64,000 bases of DNA from Fibrobacterota bacterium (GTDB lineage: Bacteria; Fibrobacterota; Fibrobacteria; UBA11236). The stretch is from assembly GCA_947482115.1 (NCBI GenBank), contig CANKII010000002.1, positions 186,001-250,000 of the forward strand. The letters run 5' to 3'. The notes below the pieces were generated by a model that saw only the letters and a program-made list of their open reading frames with translations, had not been told where the DNA came from and ran no database searches. A program made the position numbers and the translations under genes. Below are positions 51,965-63,834 of this stretch, one piece after another; the stretch's first letter is position 1; every line of letters begins with the position of its first letter.

Positions 51965-53212
51965 ATGAAGTCCCTGACCCAGCCGCTGTCCCAAGTCGAT
52001 CCGGACATCGCGGGCCTTATCGCCAAAGAAGCCCATCGCCAGGAAGAGGGCATCGAACTCATCGCATCGGAAAACACCGTCAGTCAAGCCGTGCTCGAAG
52101 CCATGGGCTCGGTGTTCACCAACAAATATTCCGAAGGTTATTCCGGGAAACGTTATTACGGCGGCAACGAAGTCGTGGATGAAATGGAATCCCTCGCGGT
52201 AAATCGCGCCAAGGCTTTGTTCGGCGCGGAGCATGTCAACGTGCAGCCGCTTTCCGGTTCGCCCGCCAATCTTGCCGTGTATATGGCCGTGGCCAAACCT
52301 GGCGACAAAGTCTTGGGTCTCAAGCTCGATCACGGTGGACATCTTTCGCACGGACACCCGGTCAATTTTTCCGGTCTCATGTACAACTTCGTGCAATATG
52401 AAGTGGACGAAAAAACCTGCCGCATCGACATGAACCGCGTTCGCGAAGTGGCGCTCAAGGAACGTCCCCGCATGATCATTGCGGGCTTCTCTGCCTACTC
52501 GCGCGACATCGACTGGAAGGCTTTCAAAAGCATCGCCGATGAAGTTGGCGCAGTCACTTTCGGCGACATCGCGCATATCGCCGGTCTCATCGCTGGCAAG
52601 GCGTTGGAGAACCCGGTTCCCATTTTCGACATTGTCACCACTACGACCCACAAGACTTTGCGCGGCCCGCGCGGGGCTATCATCATGTGCAAAAGCCAGT
52701 TCCAAAAGGACATTGACCGCACGGTGTTCCCAGGCATTCAAGGCGGCCCGCATGACCATGTCAATGCCGCCAAGGCCGTGTGTTTTCAGGAGGCGTTGCA
52801 GCCTTCGTTTCAGGAATATGCCAGGCAGGTGATTCGCAATGCGCAGGCCTTGTCCGCAGAATTGATGTCGCGCGGCTATCGCGTTTTGACCGACGGCACG
52901 GACAACCATCTTCTTGTCGTGGATTTGCGCAGCAAAGATCTCGCAGGCAAAGCCGCTGAAGTTGCGCTGGACAAAATCGGAATCTCCTGCAGCCGCAGCA
53001 CCATTCCTTTCGACACACGCAAGGCAATGGATCCTTCCGGTATTCGTCTGGGCTCGCCTGCCATGACCACACGTGGCATGGGTGAAGCCGAAGCCCGTTT
53101 GATCGGCGGATTCATCGATAAAGCCATTATGAAATCCGGCGATGAAGCTGTGCTGGCCCGCATTCACGGCGATGTGAAGGAACTGTGCAAACGGTTTCCG
53201 CTATACCTGTAA
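51965..53212 (+). CDS. glyA: Serine hydroxymethyltransferase
   Basis: GIELIASENTVSQAVLEAMGSVFTNKYSEGYSGKRYYGGNE; TTTHKTLRGPRGAII. Confidence 0.97.
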   Translation: MKSLTQPLSQVDPDIAGLIAKEAHRQEEGIELIASENTVSQAVLEAMGSVFTNKYSEGYSGKRYYGGNEVVDEMESLAVNRAKALFGAEHVNVQPLSGSPANLAVYMAVAKPGDKVLGLKLDHGGHLSHGHPVNFSGLMYNFVQYEVDEKTCRIDMNRVREVALKERPRMIIAGFSAYSRDIDWKAFKSIADEVGAVTFGDIAHIAGLIAGKALENPVPIFDIVTTTTHKTLRGPRGAIIMCKSQFQKDIDRTVFPGIQGGPHDHVNAAKAVCFQEALQPSFQEYARQVIRNAQALSAELMSRGYRVLTDGTDNHLLVVDLRSKDLAGKAAEVALDKIGISCSRSTIPFDTRKAMDPSGIRLGSPAMTTRGMGEAEARLIGGFIDKAIMKSGDEAVLARIHGDVKELCKRFPLYL

Positions 53213-54312
53213 ATTCCGGTGTGGTGGAATCCGCCGCCGGAGTGCAGCGGGAATTTTTCATCGGCCCCAAACGGATTTACCCGAACGTTTATCTCGCGCC
53301 CATGTCGGGCGTCACTGATATTTGTTTCCGCCAGCTCGTTTCCCGTCTGGCCCGAGGCCGCACGGGATTATTGGTTTCCGAATTTGTTTCCGTCGAAGGT
53401 CTGACGCGCGACAATCCCAAGTCGATGAAACAAATGGCTTTTGCCGAAGAGGAACGTCCGTTCTCCGTGCAAATCTTTGGTGGAGAACCGGGTCGCATGG
53501 GTTGGGGCGCAAAAATCGTCGAAGAAACCGGCGCGGATTTTGTGGAGATCAATTGCGGCTGTCCTGCTCCGAAAGTGGTGGGCAAAGGCGGCGGTTCGGG
53601 TTTGTTGAAAGACCTTCCCAATCTCGCAGCCATCGTGCGCTCAGTCAAAGCTGCGGTGTCCATTCCCGTTACGGTGAAAGTGCGCATTGGCTGGAGCGAC
53701 GAACTCATTACGCTGTTTGAAACGCAGAAGATCATCGAAGGCGAAGGCGCTTCGGCGATGGTGATTCACGGGCGCACGCGCGCACAAGGCTACAAGGGTT
53801 TGGCGAATTGGGATTTGATCGGCGAGGCGAAAGCACGGGCGACCATTCCTGTGGTCGGCAACGGAGATGTACTGCGCGTCGAACACGTTGTGGATCGTTT
53901 AAAAAAATATGGAGTTGACGGCGTGGCCGTGGGACGAGGCGCGATGCACAATCCGTGGATCTTCGCGCAAATCGCCGATGTGTATGAAGGAAAGGAACCT
54001 TCGCAGCCGACACGGGAGGATTACCTCCAATTGTTTGAGGAGTATCATCATTTGTTGCGTGGAGAGATGGACATTGAATTGCGGGCTTTGGGAAAACTCA
54101 AGCAGATGGCTGCGCGGGCGATGAAAGGCCTGCCGAGCAGCGGTCTGGCCCGTCTGTCCTTACTGCGTTCGCAATCCGTTTCGGAATTCTTCGATCATCT
54201 TCGGGCTTACTTCGAGCAGATTCCGTCGATGGAACGGGATATGGAAATGCTGGAGGATTTGAACGGGAAGGAAGACACGGAAGTGGTGTTTGGGAATGCC
54301 TACAAGAATTGA
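53185..54312 (+). CDS. dus: tRNA-dihydrouridine synthase
   Basis: LAPMSGVTDICFRQL, VEINCGCPAPKVVGKGGGSGLLK; 5' overlap with glyA so true start uncertain. Confidence 0.92.
   Translation: MQTVSAIPVNSGVVESAAGVQREFFIGPKRIYPNVYLAPMSGVTDICFRQLVSRLARGRTGLLVSEFVSVEGLTRDNPKSMKQMAFAEEERPFSVQIFGGEPGRMGWGAKIVEETGADFVEINCGCPAPKVVGKGGGSGLLKDLPNLAAIVRSVKAAVSIPVTVKVRIGWSDELITLFETQKIIEGEGASAMVIHGRTRAQGYKGLANWDLIGEAKARATIPVVGNGDVLRVEHVVDRLKKYGVDGVAVGRGAMHNPWIFAQIADVYEGKEPSQPTREDYLQLFEEYHHLLRGEMDIELRALGKLKQMAARAMKGLPSSGLARLSLLRSQSVSEFFDHLRAYFEQIPSMERDMEMLEDLNGKEDTEVVFGNAYKN
54253..54312 (+). repeat. dus 3'-end repeat, copy A (in dus)
   Basis: GAGGATTTGAACGGGAAGGAAGACACGGAA-GTGGTGTTTGGGAATGCCTACAAGAATTGA. Confidence 0.95.
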
Positions 54313-54438
54313 TTTTCCCATGCGTTGTTTTTTTGCGGAATAGCCGCGGCGGGTGACAAAAAGGCCATAAAATCCTTTCGTGCGCGTTCCCCTCCATTCT
54401 ATCTTCCTTCACATCAGAACCTATTCCAGGGAGAAACG

Positions 54439-54858
54439 ATGAAAACCATTCCCACCAAATTCGGATTCCTGCTCCTTTTCGGGGCCATTGCCGCAATCGT
54501 GGCCTGCAATAAAAAAGAGCCGAGAGTCTATTTCGGAAACCTGAAAAGCGGCCAGCAAGTTGAAAGCCCGTTCAAAGTCGAGATGAAATGCGAGAACCTT
54601 GTGGTGGAACCCGCCTCAAAAGGCGTCAACGAGGGCCACGGGCATTTCCACATCATCATCAACAGTCCGATGCCGCCGGCAAACTCGCCGATCCCGGTTG
54701 ACCCCATGCACATCCATTACGGACAGGGACAGAATGAAACGGAGCTGAATCTCCCCCCGGGAGAATACGATCTTCTCCTGCAATTTGCGTATGGAAATCA
54801 CGTGCCTTATGACCCGCAAATCACGAGCGACATCCTCCACGTCACGGTCACCAAGTAG
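54439..54858 (+). CDS. DUF4399-like lipoprotein
   Basis: Lipobox IVACNKK; GHFHIIINSPMP...HIHYGQGQNETELNLPPGEYDLLLQFA. Confidence 0.75.
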   Translation: MKTIPTKFGFLLLFGAIAAIVACNKKEPRVYFGNLKSGQQVESPFKVEMKCENLVVEPASKGVNEGHGHFHIIINSPMPPANSPIPVDPMHIHYGQGQNETELNLPPGEYDLLLQFAYGNHVPYDPQITSDILHVTVTK

Positions 54859-54881
54859 GTTCTAAAGTTCAAGGAGGAACC

Positions 54882-56153
54882 ATGAAACCCATTTGGACAC
54901 TGGCAGGCTTTTTGACATTGGGAATTGCCGCGGCAATTCACGCTGAGGTGTTGATCAAACCCAATGATCCGAACATCAATTATTACGGGCGTTTTGATTT
55001 TTCCAATTCCGCGACCACGGTGCCGTTCAACTGGCCGGGCAGTGTCATCGAGGCCGGTTTCCCCGGACCTTCAATCGGCGTCGAGCTGAACGACGGGAAC
55101 GGCAGCTATTTCAATGTGGAAATCGACGGCGCGCTGGTGGATTCCCTTTTGCCCACGACCACCACTCACCGGACAATCCGCACCAACCTCTCCGCCGGTA
55201 ATCACACAATCCGGATCACCTTGCGTTCCAATGGTCTGAACTGTTCCTTCAGCGGTTTTTATCTCGCCAATGGGATGTCCTTGGTCGCGCCGCCCGCCAA
55301 GCCGCTCCATAAGATCGAATTCATCGGCGACTCATGGACTGCGGGCGATGTCATCGGCCAGACCACCGGAACCCCCAACCTGAAATATTTCAACGCGTCC
55401 CTGACCTACGCACGGCGTTCCACCATTGCCTTCCATGCGCAGGATATTCTTGTCGCACGCGGCGGAGCCGGCTTGATCAAAAGTCAGGGCAACGCCGCGA
55501 CAATGCCCACGCGGTATCCGAAGACGCTATGCGACGGCACGGCCAACTGGGATTTCAACTCGTGGACTCCCGATTTGGCGGTCATTTTCTTGGGCATCAA
55601 CGATTACACCATCGGCGGCGTCACGGACACAAACTTCCGGGCGACTTACCGGACGTTCATTAACACGGTGCGCGGGCATTATCCGAACGTGCCGCTTATT
55701 TTGGTGGGCTTGGCGGGAAGCACCCTGACCAACGTGCAGGCTGTGGCGACATCATTCACCGGTACTACGGTTTTTTCCAGCCCCATCACTCTGGCCAATG
55801 CGAAGGCGCTTTACCAGCATCCCAATCAGGCGCAGCACCAGCAGATTGCCGATTCGCTGGTTGCGGTGATCAAGCGGGTGATGGGTTGGGATACCGCGGC
55901 GACTGTCGGAATCCAGGCTTCACAGACGGGACATGAAGCGCGAACTCACGGAGATACGTTTATTAAAACGTCCTTGGATAAAATTGTTTTTCCTGCGGAT
56001 CTCACGGGGGTGAACAAGGAGATCATCGCGTTTGATTATTCCGGGAGATCGATCCGGAAATGGGTTACGGAAAAGCAGACGGTTTTTCTCACGGGGGATA
56101 TGAATCTTCCTGCGGGGTTGTATTTCCTCAAAACGAGGGCAGTGGGGAAATAG
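54882..56153 (+). CDS. SGNH/GDSL hydrolase (CE2-like esterase) with C-terminal sorting-type domain
   Basis: IEFIGDSWTAGD, FLGINDYTIGG, and C-terminal EIIAFDYSGRSIRKW...LPAGLYFLKT. Confidence 0.82.
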   Translation: MKPIWTLAGFLTLGIAAAIHAEVLIKPNDPNINYYGRFDFSNSATTVPFNWPGSVIEAGFPGPSIGVELNDGNGSYFNVEIDGALVDSLLPTTTTHRTIRTNLSAGNHTIRITLRSNGLNCSFSGFYLANGMSLVAPPAKPLHKIEFIGDSWTAGDVIGQTTGTPNLKYFNASLTYARRSTIAFHAQDILVARGGAGLIKSQGNAATMPTRYPKTLCDGTANWDFNSWTPDLAVIFLGINDYTIGGVTDTNFRATYRTFINTVRGHYPNVPLILVGLAGSTLTNVQAVATSFTGTTVFSSPITLANAKALYQHPNQAQHQQIADSLVAVIKRVMGWDTAATVGIQASQTGHEARTHGDTFIKTSLDKIVFPADLTGVNKEIIAFDYSGRSIRKWVTEKQTVFLTGDMNLPAGLYFLKTRAVGK

Positions 56154-56245
56154 CTCCAGGAATTGATGCTTCATCCATTTAGTTCCTACCCTTTAGGGAG
56201 TAATGCCCCTAACCCCCATGCGCGTCAAACCGATGAACGGATGAA

Positions 56246-57391
56246 TTGAGCGAATCCAACCTGTTATCCGCACCGGAGGTCCCCTCGGTTCTTCCAGCGA
56301 ACCCAGGTTTAGAAGAAGAAGCCGGCAAAAGACTGAAATTCGGAAAATCCAACGATTTTCAAACCGAACTCCGGCGGCGCGTCGAGGAGTTCTTCCAGAC
56401 CACAGGGCGAGCGCAGCGCGATTGCCCGAGCATGTATTTCAAGACGGGAATTATTCTGGTCGCATTCGCGGCCTCCTACGCGGGACTGACGTTCTTCGCT
56501 TCCACATGGTGGCAGGCCTTGCCCTTCGCCATTCTCCTCGGCATCACCATGGCCGAGATCGGTTTCAACGTCCAGCATGACGGCGCACACCAGGGCTATT
56601 CAAGCCGCCCCTGGATCAACAAGCTGATGGCGATGACGTTGGACGTGATCGGCGGCAGCTCCTATATCTGGCATTGGAAGCATGACATCTTTCACCATAC
56701 CTACGTCAACATCGCGGGCCACGATGCCGATATCAACTTGGGCGTTTTCGGGCGGCTGAGCCCCCAACAGAAACGGCACGCATATCACCGCTGGCAGCAT
56801 TTCTACCTGTGGCCCTTATACGGTTTCCTCGCCTTCAAGTGGCTGTTCTATGACGATTTTCGCGATGCCCTCACCGGCCGGATCGGGGCATTCCGGATTC
56901 CGCGGCCCAAGGGCTGGGAAATGGTGCTTTTCCTCGGGGGCAAGGCGGTCTTTTTCACCTTGGCGTTCGCGATTCCCATGCGGATCCATCCGGTTTGGGT
57001 GGTGCTGCTTTGCTACGGGGTGGTGGCGGGAGTGTTGGGCCTCGCGCTCAGCATGGTGTTTCAGGTGGTGCATGTCGTGGAACAGGCGGAATTCCCCATG
57101 CCGCGATCCGACACCGGCCGCATCGAAAAAGCGTGGGCCGTCCATCAGGTGGAGACCACGGTCAACTATGCCCGCGACAACCGGACGGTGACATGGCTGG
57201 TGGGAGCCCTCAATTTCCAAATCGAACATCACCTGTTCCCCCGGATCTGCCACATCAATTACCCGGCCATTTCCAAGCTGGTGGAAAGCACCTGCTGCGA
57301 ATACGGAGTGCAATACTCCCAACATGCGTCATATGGCGCCGGTTTGGCGTCGCATTTCCGCTGGTTGCGCAAGATGGGGTTGGCCGCGTAA
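56246..57391 (+). CDS. Fatty acid desaturase
   Basis: TTG start; His boxes HDGAH, HDIFHH, QIEHH. Confidence 0.92.
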   Translation: MSESNLLSAPEVPSVLPANPGLEEEAGKRLKFGKSNDFQTELRRRVEEFFQTTGRAQRDCPSMYFKTGIILVAFAASYAGLTFFASTWWQALPFAILLGITMAEIGFNVQHDGAHQGYSSRPWINKLMAMTLDVIGGSSYIWHWKHDIFHHTYVNIAGHDADINLGVFGRLSPQQKRHAYHRWQHFYLWPLYGFLAFKWLFYDDFRDALTGRIGAFRIPRPKGWEMVLFLGGKAVFFTLAFAIPMRIHPVWVVLLCYGVVAGVLGLALSMVFQVVHVVEQAEFPMPRSDTGRIEKAWAVHQVETTVNYARDNRTVTWLVGALNFQIEHHLFPRICHINYPAISKLVESTCCEYGVQYSQHASYGAGLASHFRWLRKMGLAA

Positions 57392-57393
57392 AA

Positions 57394-57426
57394 TTTCACA
57401 ATGGCGCCCTCGGCTCCATTGTGAAA
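57394..57426. terminator. Hairpin, possible terminator
   Basis: TTTCACAATGG...CCATTGTGAAA between convergent genes; no clear U-tract. Confidence 0.5.
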
Positions 57427-57463
57427 CATGTCGTCAAATAGTTTCATTTTTAACAGTGGGAAG

Positions 57464-57952
57464 TCAGTTCGTTTCACACGAAGAGGCGGCGGCAAAGCAC
57501 TTGGTTCCCGAAAAACGAACCCTGTTTCCGGTTTTCTTTCCCTGCTCGTAGAGCTGGTAGTATCCCTCGACGGACGAAGAATCAATGCGCGTGATTTGGA
57601 CGTTTGCGCTGAGGGTCCGGCAAGGTAGGCCGACATGCCAAGGATCGGGATAGCATTCCCAGGCGTCGAGATTTTCGCTACTCCCCACTTCGAGGCTGTC
57701 CAGGTTCGGGTTGCGGATCCGGAATGATTCGCCTTCCTGCACAATCGAAGTCAGATCGATATGCTTGTGGTCATCCAAAAGGTTTTCGCTTCCGGGGCAG
57801 CCTTGTGGAAGGATGTTGAGACGCACGGTTTGGGGCGGATTCCAAGGGGTGCCACGGCAATAGTTGCCTATGAAAACTGTTTGGTACTCGACCTTCGATT
57901 CCGTACAACCGAAAAAGAGGACGGCGAGAAGCAGGGGGCCGTGCGTTTTCAT
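57464..57952 (-). CDS. Putative lipoprotein
   Basis: MKTHGPLLLAVLFFGCTES lipobox. Confidence 0.65.
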   Translation of the reverse strand: MKTHGPLLLAVLFFGCTESKVEYQTVFIGNYCRGTPWNPPQTVRLNILPQGCPGSENLLDDHKHIDLTSIVQEGESFRIRNPNLDSLEVGSSENLDAWECYPDPWHVGLPCRTLSANVQITRIDSSSVEGYYQLYEQGKKTGNRVRFSGTKCFAAASSCETN

Positions 57953-58030
57953 GGGCACCTCTGGGTGATAGTGAAACAAGTGTACATCAAATCCCGGTCA
58001 TAAAAATTTTCGGGCATTTCCGACCGCTTT
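57930..58030 (-). repeat. Shared leader/signal-peptide module, copy 1
   Basis: Similar to 60612-60713 (CAGGGGGCCGnGCnTTTTCAT...CAAATCCCGGTnAT...TTTCC). Confidence 0.8.
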
Positions 58031-58126
58031 GGGCAAGAACGAGACGATCACACTGCGTCAATTATCCGTTCGAACGACCTTTATTTTCGTAGTTTAAAAT
58101 CTCCATCCTAAACCAGGAGTCGACTC

Positions 58127-59077
58127 ATGTCTGACCAGAAAATCATCGTGGTGTTGGGCGCAACCGGGGCGCAGGGCGGCGGGCTCGCGCGCGCCATCCT
58201 CAATGATCCCTCAAAGACATTTTCCCTTCGCGCCGTGACGCGCAAGCCGGACTCGGATAAGGCGAAAGCCTTGAAAGCTGCCGGCGCGGAGGTCGTGACT
58301 GCCGACCTCGACGATGTGGAAAGCCTCACAAAGGCCTTCTCGGGTGCTTACGGGGTTTACGGCCTCACCAACTTTTGGGAACACTTTTCGCCGGAGAAGG
58401 AAACGGCTCAGGCGAAAAACATCGCCGAGGCCGCCAAGGCTGCCGGAGTGCGGCATGCGATCTGGTCCACCTTCGAGGACGTTCGCGACAAGGTTCCGCT
58501 CGCGGACACCCGCATGCCCACCTTGCTCGGGAAGTACAAGGTTCCGCATTTCGACGCCAAGGCGGAGGCGAATGCGTTCTTCCGCAATGCCGGAGTGCCG
58601 ACCACTTTCCTGTTGACTTCGTTCTACTGGGACAACCTGATTTATTTCGGTCTTGGTCCCAAGAAAGGCCCGGACGGCGTACTGGCCATCACCTTTCCCA
58701 TGGGCGACAAGAAGCTGCCCGGCATCGCCGCAGAGGATATCGGCAAGTGCGCTTTGGGTGTTTTCAAGGCCGGAGACAAGTACATCGGTAAAACGGTTGG
58801 CGTTGCCGGCGGGCACCAGACCGGGGCGCAGATGGCGGCCTCGCTGTCCAAGTCTCTGGGTCAGGAAGTGCGTTACAACGCTGTGCCGGCTGACATGTAT
58901 CGCGGTTTCGGTTTTCCGGGCGCGGACGAGATGGGCAATATGTTTCAGTACAAGGCCGACTTCGAGGAAGCCTACTGCGGCGTGCGCAACCTCGACGAAT
59001 CGAAGGCCCTTAATCCCTCGATCCAGAGTTTCGATCAGTGGCTGGCGGTCAATAAGGACAAGATTCCGCTGGAGTGA
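58127..59077 (+). CDS. NmrA-family NAD(P)-binding protein
   Basis: KIIVVLGATGAQGGGLARAIL; NmrA-like GVRHAIWSTFEDV. Confidence 0.9.
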   Translation: MSDQKIIVVLGATGAQGGGLARAILNDPSKTFSLRAVTRKPDSDKAKALKAAGAEVVTADLDDVESLTKAFSGAYGVYGLTNFWEHFSPEKETAQAKNIAEAAKAAGVRHAIWSTFEDVRDKVPLADTRMPTLLGKYKVPHFDAKAEANAFFRNAGVPTTFLLTSFYWDNLIYFGLGPKKGPDGVLAITFPMGDKKLPGIAAEDIGKCALGVFKAGDKYIGKTVGVAGGHQTGAQMAASLSKSLGQEVRYNAVPADMYRGFGFPGADEMGNMFQYKADFEEAYCGVRNLDESKALNPSIQSFDQWLAVNKDKIPLE

Positions 59078-59101
59078 TCTCAACATCGACGGTTAGACGC
59101 C

Positions 59102-59131
59102 GTGGTGTTTGGGAATACATACAAGAATTAA
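59102..59131 (+). repeat. dus 3'-end repeat, copy B
   Basis: GTGGTGTTTGGGAATACATACAAGAATTAA (VVFGNTYKN-stop). Confidence 0.95.
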
Positions 59132-60633
59132 AGTACGCGATAGCACACGGTGATGCCGAATTCTGTTCCCGAGGCATCCTGCGTGCGGGTGGCTCCGAAT
59201 CGCTCCAACTGCGAGGGAAAGGACAACAGGCCCTCGATCCCCAAAGCCTCCTTTAGCAGGCCCAGCCCGAAGCCTAGGGAAAAGGCGCTGTAAGCGGCCG
59301 GATCGTCGGGCTTTGGATTGAGCTGGACGCTGCGTGTGGGCACGCGCGGCGAAGGCAAGAATGGATCGAAATGGAACTCGCGATACCCAGGAACGCTCTT
59401 GGCATCCTGTCGCCAAGTCCAGCCGGCCCGCAGGGCCAGGCTCATGTTGTCCGGGAAACGGAACCAGGGCAGACGTTCGACCTGCTGTTCCACGCCCAGA
59501 GAAAACCGGTGGTAGCGTTCGTCTTGGATACTGTCGACGTCGTAGGAGTGTCCGGAGGTTTCCCACTCCAGCAGCAGGGTACTCATCTCCCTGAAGCTGA
59601 AACTTCCACCCAGCCCAAAGGCATTGATGTCGCGCGTTTCATGCATGGCATTGATCTTGTTGCCCTTTTTGAACGGGTTCTGATTGCCTTTGATTGCGGC
59701 ATATCCCTGGGCATCTTCGGAACGGTGGGCAAAGCGTAGGGCCGGTGCCAGCTTGAACTCCCGCACCTTGAGGGTGTACATCCATTGCGTTTGCAACGTC
59801 CAATAATCGGTCCAGACGATCGGATATTCCGCGCTCGCGCCGCCTGCTTGACGATACGCGCCGAAGAATCGCTCCGTTCCCAATTCCAGTACCACGTCAC
59901 TGATTAAGGGCAGTGACTGGGTGCCTCCGAAGTCGGCCAATAAACCGTAACGCGGAAGCGTGAGGGTGGCGACCCGTTCCAAGCGTCCCGACGGAGTCTG
60001 CAAGCTGTCAAAGCGGCCTCCGAATCCGGCGAAGGCGTCCACCTCCAAGTACGGAAGCAACTGGCTGCCGATGTCGAAACGCAATGCGGGGATTGCGAGG
60101 ATCACACGGTTCATGTCTCCGGAATAATCCATGTTCCCGATGGCGACATGGACTGCAAGCCCCACCCTCAACAGGCCTGAGGCGGGACCCGCGACCAGAT
60201 CGACGCCAAACAGCGAGGTTCCCGTTTCCACACTGTCGCCGCCTTTGGCCTGGTAGGTCTCCGCCTGCCGCTGGTAGTAGAGGGTGGCACCGACTATGCC
60301 GGGTTTAAAGAAACCCAGTTGCGGGATGGCATAGTCTGTGTGGTCAATGGCCAGAGAGTCCCCATCCGTAGAACGGCTGGTGCCGAGAATTTCAAATCCG
60401 GCCGAAACACGTTCCGGGTGGGTTTCCAGAAGACCCAAGGGTGATCCACCTTGGTCATAGAGATTGTAAAGCTGGGCATTGGTGAATCGGGGTTCGCCCA
60501 GAGCCAGGTTACGCAGGGAATTGCTGCCGGAGGCGCTGCGGTTGGCTGGCGGCGCTTCCGGAAATATCTGGGTCAGTCCCGGCATGGAGGCTAGGGAAAT
60601 AGCGGCGAAGAACAGGGGGCCGGGCATTTTCAT
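59128..60633 (-). CDS. Outer-membrane-type hypothetical protein
   Basis: N-terminal signal peptide and beta-strand periodicity. Confidence 0.65.
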   Translation of the reverse strand: MKMPGPLFFAAISLASMPGLTQIFPEAPPANRSASGSNSLRNLALGEPRFTNAQLYNLYDQGGSPLGLLETHPERVSAGFEILGTSRSTDGDSLAIDHTDYAIPQLGFFKPGIVGATLYYQRQAETYQAKGGDSVETGTSLFGVDLVAGPASGLLRVGLAVHVAIGNMDYSGDMNRVILAIPALRFDIGSQLLPYLEVDAFAGFGGRFDSLQTPSGRLERVATLTLPRYGLLADFGGTQSLPLISDVVLELGTERFFGAYRQAGGASAEYPIVWTDYWTLQTQWMYTLKVREFKLAPALRFAHRSEDAQGYAAIKGNQNPFKKGNKINAMHETRDINAFGLGGSFSFREMSTLLLEWETSGHSYDVDSIQDERYHRFSLGVEQQVERLPWFRFPDNMSLALRAGWTWRQDAKSVPGYREFHFDPFLPSPRVPTRSVQLNPKPDDPAAYSAFSLGFGLGLLKEALGIEGLLSFPSQLERFGATRTQDASGTEFGITVCYRVL

Positions 60634-60713
60634 CGGGCGCCTCGGGGTGAGAGTACGTATAGTGTATACTCAAATCCCGGTTATGGATATTTGTGCGTGT
60701 TTCCAATCACCTT
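60612..60713 (-). repeat. Shared leader/signal-peptide module, copy 2
   Basis: See 57930-58030. Confidence 0.8.
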
Positions 60714-60758
60714 TTGAAAATGAGGGTGTCCCTTTTTGGAAGATGGGAATAAAACCTA

Positions 60759-60818
60759 GAGGATTTGATCGGTAAGGAAGAGTCGGAAGTGGTGTTTGGG
60801 AATACGTATAAGAATTGA
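60759..60818 (+). repeat. dus 3'-end repeat, copy C (extended, 60 bp)
   Basis: GAGGATTTGATCGGTAAGGAAGAGTCGGAA-GTGGTGTTTGGGAATACGTATAAGAATTGA (EDLIGKEESEVVFGNTYKN-stop). Confidence 0.96.
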
Positions 60819-60820
60819 AG

Positions 60821-61405
60821 TTATTGTCTGAAGACGAGTTTTGGACCGGACTTGTCTTGTTGGAATTCAATGATTCTGTATAGGAATCGGTTCGCCCTTA
60901 ATCCGGATCGAATTTGACGGCCGATTACCAGATCCCCACTGGCAAGCTGTGAAATAAAGTCGTTCGTGTAAATCCCTTTTCTTGTGTTGAAGGGCGGGCT
61001 AGATTTTTCGAATACATCAGATACGGATTTGTTGAATTCGATGTAGCCATCCCACCTGCCATCATCACGATCCAAACGTTTTCCTACGGCACCCGCAATA
61101 TTCTGGGAATTCGGTAATCCATCCTTTGAACCACGAAGGGATAAAGCGGCTTTATCCTGTTTAAGTGCTAATTCCAATTCTGGTTTTGAAATCCATCCGT
61201 CACTATCGTGGTCGCAGATTTTCAAAACATCTTTGCTTGCCTTCATGCTGTCAGAGCGGACATTTTGATATACCGCACTCGCGATACTGTAGATCAAGTT
61301 GTTTCTGATGGCTGCCAAAGTATCTGGAGTTTGCGCCGAATAAACAATGGAGAATCCTGAAATTGAAATGAGCATGACAAGCTTAAAAAACGGAGCTTTT
61401 CTCAT
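60821..61405 (-). CDS. Secreted EF-hand-like protein
   Basis: CDHDSDGWISKPELELAL and DRDDGRWDGYIEFN calcium-loop-like motifs; N-terminal signal peptide. Confidence 0.7.
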   Translation of the reverse strand: MRKAPFFKLVMLISISGFSIVYSAQTPDTLAAIRNNLIYSIASAVYQNVRSDSMKASKDVLKICDHDSDGWISKPELELALKQDKAALSLRGSKDGLPNSQNIAGAVGKRLDRDDGRWDGYIEFNKSVSDVFEKSSPPFNTRKGIYTNDFISQLASGDLVIGRQIRSGLRANRFLYRIIEFQQDKSGPKLVFRQ

Positions 61406-61446
61406 TCTTTACTCCTTACGGTCCATTCGGTCGAAGTTGTTTGAAT

Positions 61447-62028
61447 TTACGAACCCTGCAGTAGCCGCATGGCATAGTCACGAACATCTTTCGGCCATTC
61501 CTTCGTCAGCTCTTCGAGTTTATTGACATCTCCGGCATACAAGGCTCTGGAAGCCTCTTCGAATCCCGGAAGATTTCCCGACATGGCCCACATGAAATTC
61601 CCCGCAGCGTCGCGCGCCTTTCGCGCATGCTCCTTGTCGGGATCGCGCCGCTTCGCTTCTTCCACTAGTTTGCGCAATGTTCCCGAGGCTCCCTGCGGTT
61701 GCTGTTCCAGCCATTCCCAATGGCGGGGGAGAAGTGAAATCTCACGGCAGACAATCCCGAGCTTCGGACGTCCCGGTCCGGTTCGCGGAGTTGTGGCCTC
61801 CTCTTTGGGTGTGAAGAGCGGATGTGCAGGAAGTTTACGCAGAACATCTTCTGGCGTGCCGCGAAGATCGAAATCCACCTGCTTGCCGGTGCGATCATCG
61901 AAGATTAAAAGCGCAGCGTTGTCGCCGCTGTCCAAGTGCTTTTTGGACTCGAGGACAATTGATTTGATATCGCCGGAAAGCAGAAGTTTGGTTCCGGAGA
62001 AGGCTGTGTAGGTGTTGTTGGTTTCCAT
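61447..62028 (-). CDS. DUF2239 family protein
   Basis: RTGPGRPKLGIVCREISLLPRHWEWLEQQPQGASGTLRKLVEEAKR. Confidence 0.85.
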   Translation of the reverse strand: METNNTYTAFSGTKLLLSGDIKSIVLESKKHLDSGDNAALLIFDDRTGKQVDFDLRGTPEDVLRKLPAHPLFTPKEEATTPRTGPGRPKLGIVCREISLLPRHWEWLEQQPQGASGTLRKLVEEAKRRDPDKEHARKARDAAGNFMWAMSGNLPGFEEASRALYAGDVNKLEELTKEWPKDVRDYAMRLLQGS

Positions 62029-62070
62029 AAATCCCTCTTTTTATCCCGTTTTAAGGGAGGATAAATATTA

Positions 62071-62100
62071 TTACCCGGGTAATTTATATATACCCGGGTA
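62071..62100. promoter_or_regulatory. Paired palindromes TTACCCGGGTAA and TACCCGGGTA
   Basis: Two CCCGGG-centred palindromes 19 bp apart in the DUF2239 promoter region. Confidence 0.6.
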
Positions 62101-62120
62101 AAATTCAAGGGGTAATTTGA

Positions 62121-62139
62121 GGATTCACATAAGAATTAG
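62121..62139 (+). repeat. Possible degenerate dus 3'-end repeat, copy E
   Basis: GGATTCACATAAGAATTAG; shares ATAAGAATTAG with copy D. Confidence 0.4.
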
Positions 62140-62153
62140 AAATCGCGGTTAAT

Positions 62154-62174
62154 TGTATGTACAAAGAACATACA
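62154..62174. promoter_or_regulatory. Inverted repeat TGTATGT-N7-ACATACA upstream of the CopG/BrnA-like gene
   Basis: Perfect 7-bp arms, ~70 bp upstream of ATG 62244. Confidence 0.5.
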
Positions 62175-62243
62175 TTAAACGCATTCTGTTTCAGGAGAAT
62201 AAGGCGCCGATTTATCTGTTCACGATTTTCGAGGAGGGTTGAA

Positions 62244-62510
62244 ATGAAGCTGACGAAATTTGAGAAGGAGCTGCAAGCGGCGATGAAGAAGGGAAGCTAT
62301 GAGATCGTCAAGCTTTCAAAAGTGGAGCGGGAAAAATACCGCGCTGCTGCGCGGACAGCGCTGGGGAAGAACGAGACGATTACGCTTCGTGTCAATGGCG
62401 GAGATCTGCGGGCATTGAAGGAGATTGCGTTGAAGGCTGGGAAACGGTATCAGACGTATATCGGGGAATTGTTGCATGAGCATGCGGTGAAGAAGGTGAA
62501 GCTGGCGTGA
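62244..62510 (+). CDS. Ribbon-helix-helix (CopG/BrnA-type antitoxin-like) protein
   Basis: KNETITLRVNGGDLRALKEIALKAGKRYQTYIGELLHEH. Confidence 0.65.
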   Translation: MKLTKFEKELQAAMKKGSYEIVKLSKVEREKYRAAARTALGKNETITLRVNGGDLRALKEIALKAGKRYQTYIGELLHEHAVKKVKLA

Positions 62511-62546
62511 AAGCTGTCAGTGCTGAGTTCAACAGTTTGTTTAGAA

Positions 62547-62576
62547 GCGGTGTTTGGGAATATGTATAAGAATTAG
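62547..62576 (+). repeat. dus 3'-end repeat, copy D
   Basis: GCGGTGTTTGGGAATATGTATAAGAATTAG (AVFGNMYKN-stop). Confidence 0.93.
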
Positions 62577-62589
62577 TTCGCAAGACTCA

Positions 62590-63834
62590 TCACGCTATAA
62601 TCCCCTCCTCTAACTCGCCGACTCCAGCATCGGTTATTGAGCCTAAGCTTCTACGTGCCTGATTGAGATAGTCACGAACTTTCCGTCTTATTACATGTTC
62701 CGGCATATCTTGCAAATCTGCTCTTATTTTTTCGGCCTCAGTCAATATGTCTGCCGTTAGGTAAGGGGCAGAGCTTAACTCCAACATTAATGGAAGATGA
62801 AATTCAGTTCCTTTCCCAATCCGTCCTCTCACTGGACCAAAGGCTAGATAGTTCACCATAAAATCAGCGCTTAGTATTGGAGAGTCTGGAGGGTCCATGA
62901 TCATTACTTCACGCAATCGGGATTTTAAATCAAATGTCTTTCGGTCTATAGTTAACCACCAAGCACTATAACCGAACGGAGATGATGTTTCTTTTTTCCT
63001 TAGTTGTACTACACCGCAATAACATTCTATGTCATGTTCAATGAGGCGGGTAACAACTATTTCGTCAAAAGGTTTGTTATAACGTTCACATTGACGTTGA
63101 TGCGCTTCGTACCAAAGGGTCTGAAGCGCAGTGCGAAGCTCAGTTGGTGCTGCAGCGAGTTCTGTGGAAAGGCTAAGTGTTTGAATTCCAAACTGGGCCA
63201 GTAGATAGTCGGAAATATCTTGGTGTGGTTGCTCGCGGCCTCGAAAATTCTCAAGCCATTTAGAAAAACTTGCTACAGATCTTCCACTAACTATATACCG
63301 TTCAAATAAATACGGAACACTTCCTTCCCATCGATATCCTATTTGAGCACAGGTTTGTGCGCGATTTATATGGCGTTCAATTTCTTCAATAATTGCAGGT
63401 GTGATAAAGAGATTTAATCCTGCTTCCTGAGCGGCATTAATCATCCTTGTGAACCTGCCAGGGGAAGGCTCGCTGAGAGTCTCAACTAACAAAGGTAAAG
63501 TGACCGATGCATCAAGCCATATTTTCCCATGGGCAAACATTTTTTCGACTGCACCTTGCACATCAGGAGTTTGTCGAAGGAAGGCGAGTAGGGTGTAGGC
63601 GTCAGCAAGTTGTTTTAAATGTGTTTGGATAGAAGGGTCTTCGCTCATGAGCGCTTCACGAACGCCGTTTTTTAAGATATCCAACCAGTCAGTTCCTGCA
63701 AGTTTCGGGAATGGACTTGTTGTCAATTGGGCGATTAATATGTCTGTAAAATCTCCAACCGCGAAAGCCGAGAGTTTTCCAGTTTGGACAGCAAGAGCGA
63801 ATGTCTGGCTGCGATCTAAAAGTACCTCATCCAT
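62590..63834 (-). CDS. PIN-like domain protein; N-terminus probably extends upstream of this ATG
   Basis: Acidic motifs KIWLDASVTLPLLVE, TPAIIEEIERH, FDEIVVTRLIEHD, WWLTIDRKTF; same frame stays open upstream to a TAA near 63960. Confidence 0.55.
   Translation of the reverse strand: MDEVLLDRSQTFALAVQTGKLSAFAVGDFTDILIAQLTTSPFPKLAGTDWLDILKNGVREALMSEDPSIQTHLKQLADAYTLLAFLRQTPDVQGAVEKMFAHGKIWLDASVTLPLLVETLSEPSPGRFTRMINAAQEAGLNLFITPAIIEEIERHINRAQTCAQIGYRWEGSVPYLFERYIVSGRSVASFSKWLENFRGREQPHQDISDYLLAQFGIQTLSLSTELAAAPTELRTALQTLWYEAHQRQCERYNKPFDEIVVTRLIEHDIECYCGVVQLRKKETSSPFGYSAWWLTIDRKTFDLKSRLREVMIMDPPDSPILSADFMVNYLAFGPVRGRIGKGTEFHLPLMLELSSAPYLTADILTEAEKIRADLQDMPEHVIRRKVRDYLNQARRSLGSITDAGVGELEEGIIA

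Follow-up and report, generated by a model that had tools for sequence, protein, structure and literature searches.

The target gene and the repeated copies of its 3' end

The window, i.e. the whole 64,000-nucleotide stretch that was analyzed, belongs to a genome of 2.7 Mb in 15 contigs (99.4% complete) from a member of the Fibrobacterota. Its plus strand carries at positions 53185-54312 the gene for a DusB-like tRNA-dihydrouridine synthase of 375 amino acids, here called dus (Pfam Dus, 4e-73; TIGR00737 DusB, 5e-87, with a score of 292.0 bits that lies slightly below the cut-off of 293.3). The 3' end of this gene occurs four times as a direct repeat on the plus strand, at 54283, 59102, 60789, and 62547, and exact matches to GTGTTTGGGAATNNNTANAAGAATT start at 54286, 59105, 60792, and 62550. 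The 25-nt core was matched four times in the window and not once in 100 shuffles. No copy beyond these four was present in the 2.7-Mb genome when up to three mismatches were allowed. A weak fifth candidate at 62110 matched at 17 of 25 positions, was equalled in 4 of 20 shuffles, and is not claimed.

The limits given for copies A to D are exact bounds over ten codons. Copy A is the live dus terminus (54283-54312; VVFGNAYKN, stop codon TGA). The putatively displaced ends are copy B (59102-59131; VVFGNTYKN, TAA), copy C (ten-codon bounds 60789-60818, TGA), and copy D (62547-62576; AVFGNMYKN, TAG). Copy C is recognizable over 66 nt (60753-60818), which read NLEDLIGKEESEVVFGNTYKN up to the stop codon. 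Frame and stop were thus kept in all four copies, following the pattern VVFGN[A/T/T/M]YKN with the stops TGA/TAA/TGA/TAG and with alanine instead of valine as the first residue of copy D. Copy D ends in a stop although two bases of this codon differ from the TGA of the live gene. Copy C and dus are identical at 56 of 66 nt, and 6 of the 10 differences fall on third codon positions. The left limits of dus homology are unequal, at about 31 nt in copy B, 36 nt in copy D, and 66 nt in copy C. The variable residue in NxYKN is alanine in the live gene, threonine in copies B and C, and methionine in copy D; three dus ends from the same genus read NTYRN, NTYKN, and NTYMN and have the threonine in common.

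Because frame and stop codon were retained with different stop codons, and because copy C preserves 66 nt of the dus C terminus, copies B to D are best read as displaced, formerly working dus ends of different alleles rather than as decayed duplicates. The competing idea, in which the dus end was duplicated in tandem in this lineage and unrelated genes were inserted between the copies by chance, finds some support in the mutual similarity of the copies, which at 26-30 of 33 positions are closer to one another than to the same-genus dus ends (20-25 of 33). It is nevertheless improbable given the conserved frame with differing stops, the genus-typical threonine in copies B and C, the third-position bias in copy C, and the presence of unrelated genes, not duplicated neighbors, between the copies. 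The dus gene itself is intact, and the displaced ends resemble other alleles. A coding signature of this kind, in which the frame is kept and the stop codons differ, is a simple test that helps to separate displaced alleles from decayed duplicates.

Gene content of the segments

Segment A-B (54313-59101) contains, according to open reading frames and Pfam matches, genes for a DUF4399 protein (plus strand), a CE2/GDSL esterase (plus), a fatty-acid desaturase (plus), and a lipoprotein-like protein (minus), followed by a fragment of an RHH gene and an NmrA-like gene (plus). None of these genes turned up in the dus-manB interval of relatives. A stretch of 37 nt that precedes the NmrA-like gene (58022-58058) shares 81% identity with 62354-62390 within an RHH open reading frame further downstream, and it is probably a fragment of a gene related to that reading frame.

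Copy B is followed on the minus strand by the gene for an outer-membrane-type protein of 501 amino acids (59128-60633) without a Pfam family. Homologues of this protein (58-61%) are encoded in three genomes of the same family, on contigs other than that of dus. The upstream regions and starts of the lipoprotein-like and outer-membrane-type genes (57922-58030 and 60603-60713) are alike, with 70-82% identity over 34-44 nt, the proteins being otherwise different.

Segment C-D comprises two minus-strand genes, one for an EF-hand-like protein of 194 amino acids (60821-61405; weak EF-hand_6 match, G+C 43%) and one for a DUF2239 protein assigned by Pfam (61447-62028), and a plus-strand reading frame for a BrnA/CopG-type (RHH) antitoxin-like protein (62157-62510), whose match is weak and below the Pfam cut-off. 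The DUF2239 gene is preceded at about 62060-62115 by repeats containing ACCCGGGT. Over 28 nt, this region is 93% identical to sequence close to the DUF2239 gene in genome G002, and the repeats are perhaps an operator.

Copy D is followed by a minus-strand gene for a PIN-like protein of 414 amino acids (62590-63834), which matches the C-terminal part of a 735-residue protein and was absent from 100 relatives. Beyond the window, a minus-strand reading frame for an REase-like protein of 286 amino acids (L005:4916-5776, about 63915-64775 in window coordinates) is followed by manB at about 64812. The PIN-like and REase-like reading frames match two parts of a single 735-codon gene on plasmids of E. 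coli, Citrobacter, and Klebsiella. The two adjacent minus-strand reading frames correspond to the plasmid protein in different frames, which suggests that a frameshift has divided the gene in this genome or that the assembly contains an error. In the plasmid examined, the gene for the 735-residue protein adjoins that for a TrlF-family ATPase. The G+C content is about 43% in the EF-hand and PIN parts and mostly 50-60% in the remainder, much of segments A-B and B-C being native-like. No similarity to phage DNA was detected for 54200-62000.

The dus-manB interval in relatives

In four genomes of the same family, dus and manB are directly convergent, with about 25, 62, 71, and 455 nt from stop to stop; in the genome under study, 10.5 kb separate the two genes. 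The empty site is known from these four relatives, the species itself being represented by one genome. More generally, the native loci of relatives usually have a convergent gene after dus, most often manB, at a distance of -3 to 455 nt. The occupied intervals vary. G001, from the same genus, carries 1.9 kb with a DUF2239 gene homologous to that of segment C-D, G007 a gene of 1036 codons, and G008 two reading frames, with an overlap between the first and the dus stop. In G002, a 358-codon esterase-like gene starts 39 nt after dus and the contig then ends; the contig of G003 ends 124 nt after dus. In G002 and in five genomes of the same family, DUF2239 homologues are located on contigs other than that of dus. 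The dus-manB interval is therefore a variable spot in the family. Differing genes without dus-end repeats occupy it in several genomes of the family (L048, L049, L050, and L055). A tRNA-Glu (CTC) gene lies upstream of glgC (L005:8568-8642, about 67567-67641 in window coordinates), and 76-97 nt at this gene recur with 91-97% identity in G001 and in five genomes from another genus within the family, marking the right-hand conserved flank.

Repeated dus ends were absent from all 30 related dus loci, most of which could be read for 9-16 kb downstream with a few much shorter contigs among them; the best similarity was 23 of 33 positions versus the 26-30 of 33 seen here. Within 100 relatives, the core pattern was restricted to the dus end of G008 itself and scattered matches with two mismatches.

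The DUF2239 gene shared with the dus-manB interval of G001 is one argument for an origin without any site-specific recombinase, in which pieces of relatives' dus-manB regions, each a dus 3' end with its downstream neighbor, were acquired and combined here through homologous or illegitimate recombination. The uneven left limits of dus homology, with 66 nt of dus retained in copy C, point in the same direction. On the other hand, a preference for one point would be required if all three separate insertions were to begin within the final 31-66 nt of dus, the homologues of the outer-membrane-type gene are located away from the dus contig, and the PIN gene occurs in no relative. We regard this origin as rather unlikely, although it is the most serious competitor of the explanation preferred below.

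Arrangement of sites and adjoining genes

A preliminary description of this DNA had reported a constant geometry in which each downstream dus copy abuts the 3' end of a minus-strand gene, and its coordinates for copies and gene ends proved to be correct within 1 nt. The last bases of copy B (59102-59131) overlap the minus-strand stop codon (59128-59130) of the 501-codon gene, 2 nt separate the end of copy C (60818) from the stop of the EF-hand-like gene (60821), and 13 nt lie between the end of copy D (62576) and the stop of the PIN-like gene (62590). Over about 94 kb around the site, 9% of the non-ORF positions have a minus-strand stop no more than 20 nt to their right, and the ends of 4 of 43 plus-strand genes are equally close to a convergent stop. 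The chance of finding three of three copies beside a convergent stop is about 0.0008, a figure calculated post hoc.

The regularity thus holds for copies B, C, and D. It does not extend to copy A, where the next gene is the plus-strand DUF4399 gene starting at 54325 or 54440, nor to the left flanks, which differ: the plus-strand NmrA stop is 24 nt away from copy B, the 5' end of the minus-strand outer-membrane-type gene is 155 nt away from copy C, and the plus-strand RHH stop is 36 nt away from copy D. The segments are 4.8, 1.7, and 1.8 kb long, with a further 2.2 kb or so between copy D and manB, and hold one to six genes on mixed strands. Since dus 3' ends in relatives usually have a convergent neighbor, the order of site and convergent gene is best read as the native geometry of a dus end that was displaced. 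A striking regularity between sites and genes can therefore arise without cassettes, because a displaced gene end carries along its convergent neighbor.

The same arrangement had suggested recombination-site/gene cassettes, i.e. mobile integron-like units of a minus-strand gene plus a 3' site mobilized by a recombinase with the dus-end sequence as its substrate. In minus-strand orientation, a site does follow each of three genes within 13 nt, as in the gene-attC order of integrons. Several observations disagree with such units, beginning with the sites themselves, which are coding dus termini, and with the mostly multi-gene, mixed-strand segments. A search for further cassettes of equal geometry had been proposed as a check; no other array was found in the genome or in the 30 related dus loci.

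Recombinases, folds, and outside matches

Only two tyrosine recombinases were found in the genome, one XerD-like and one XerC-like, and each scored below its NCBIfam equivalog cut-off. No integron integrase was found besides these enzymes, and no serine recombinase, including the large ccr type, was detected in the genome. A six-frame Pfam scan of the dus-manB interval revealed neither an integrase nor a remnant of one. A Dus-associated integrase adjoining dus was not found either, and the repeat corresponds to the 3' end of dus, not to its 5' part. The repeats folded no better than shuffles (z from -0.8 to +1.5), which provides no sign of an attC-like hairpin. A single dif-like candidate with three mismatches is located on another contig, and it therefore lends no support to the use of Xer at dus. 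In viral contigs, no convincing attP was found; the core pattern gave no match and, after it was loosened, three that were judged to be due to chance. The one match in genome contigs, in an Omnitrophota sequence with a different context, was judged likewise.

An integron was therefore ruled out on enzyme, fold, and segment content, and gene cassettes are a very improbable and largely refuted explanation. What stands from the earlier proposal of cassettes instead of random duplications is that the copies are non-random and lie where acquired DNA was joined at a recombination hot spot. The part that envisaged gene cassettes with one site per gene does not hold.

Proposed origin of the array

We deduce that small genomic islets have probably accumulated in tandem at the dus 3' end, in an array devoid of an integrase. 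On at least three occasions, foreign DNA would have inserted between dus and manB. Each time, a 3' end supplied by a related allele would have completed the dus frame, displacing the older end downstream along with its adjoining convergent gene. The direct repeats now seen in a row would be earlier working termini of dus, each with a minus-strand gene behind it. The joins may have been made by a site-specific recombinase that acted on a core of 25-30 nt and is now lost or supplied in trans.

Support for stacked islets comes, besides the kept frames and stops of the four copies, their allele-like differences, and the empty dus-manB site of relatives, from the low-G+C PIN/REase segment, the two parts of which occur on enterobacterial plasmids and whose PIN gene is found in 0 of 100 relatives, and from the differing inserts at the same dus-manB point in G001, G002, G007, and G008. 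Several findings speak against them. The interval lacks an integrase or remnant, and the genome offers only XerC/XerD-like enzymes and no serine recombinase. The left limits of homology are uneven, which is unexpected from one precise recombinase. In addition, repeated dus ends occur in no relative, the viral contigs yielded no convincing attP, and much of segments A-B and B-C has a native-like G+C content. Plain recombination of relatives' dus regions agrees better with the lack of an enzyme and with the unequal left limits; the repeated use of one short point favors a recombinase that was lost or acts in trans. A bolder version, in which the dus 3' end is a mobile recombination site of a cassette-like system lacking its own integrase, with segments moved in trans by host Xer or another enzyme and genes captured in a fixed convergent orientation, appears very improbable.

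Comparison with known systems

The stacked islets have their closest counterparts among tandem islands. In Dehalococcoides, islands lie in tandem downstream of ssrA between 20-bp repeats that correspond to the 3' end of this gene; an integration module is missing from 15 of the 31 islands (PMC3146451). The concept of cis-mobilizable elements (CIMEs) and their accretion is described in the same work (PMC3146451). Here too, tandem segments downstream of one conserved gene are bounded by direct repeats of its 3' end, as is characteristic of tandem islands and CIMEs. The target is, however, the protein gene dus instead of a tmRNA gene, the segments span 1.7-4.8 kb in one genome only, and no dedicated integrase was found anywhere in that genome. 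Genomic islands with their own integrase carry its gene within the element; the array at dus has none.

SCC/ECC elements insert in the 3' region of rlmH and leave extra attR copies from remnants (PMC6222049). They share with the present locus a conserved RNA-modification gene as target (a methyltransferase gene in the case of rlmH), which is hit in its 3' region, stays whole, and is accompanied by extra copies of its end. Unlike them, the dus locus has no ccr-kind serine recombinase, and its repeats lack the TATCATAA core motif. The islands of dusA-associated integrases target the 5' end of dusA, rarely dusB or dusC, with the integrase gene adjoining (PMC4482086). Both cases involve a tRNA-dihydrouridine synthase gene, which those islands restore, but they differ in that the 5' end and an integrase are involved there, and the 3' end without an integrase here. 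Integron cassettes are similar in having a site at the 3' end of genes that point one way, and dissimilar in their integrase and attC fold, both lacking here, where the segments are multi-gene and mixed-strand.

The locus is best read as resembling the Dehalococcoides ssrA islands, CIMEs, and SCC remnants, minus their enzymes. It belongs to a known type of gene-insertion hot spot and is not a new cassette system. With it, the dus 3' end joins the conserved RNA-modification genes that serve as landing sites.
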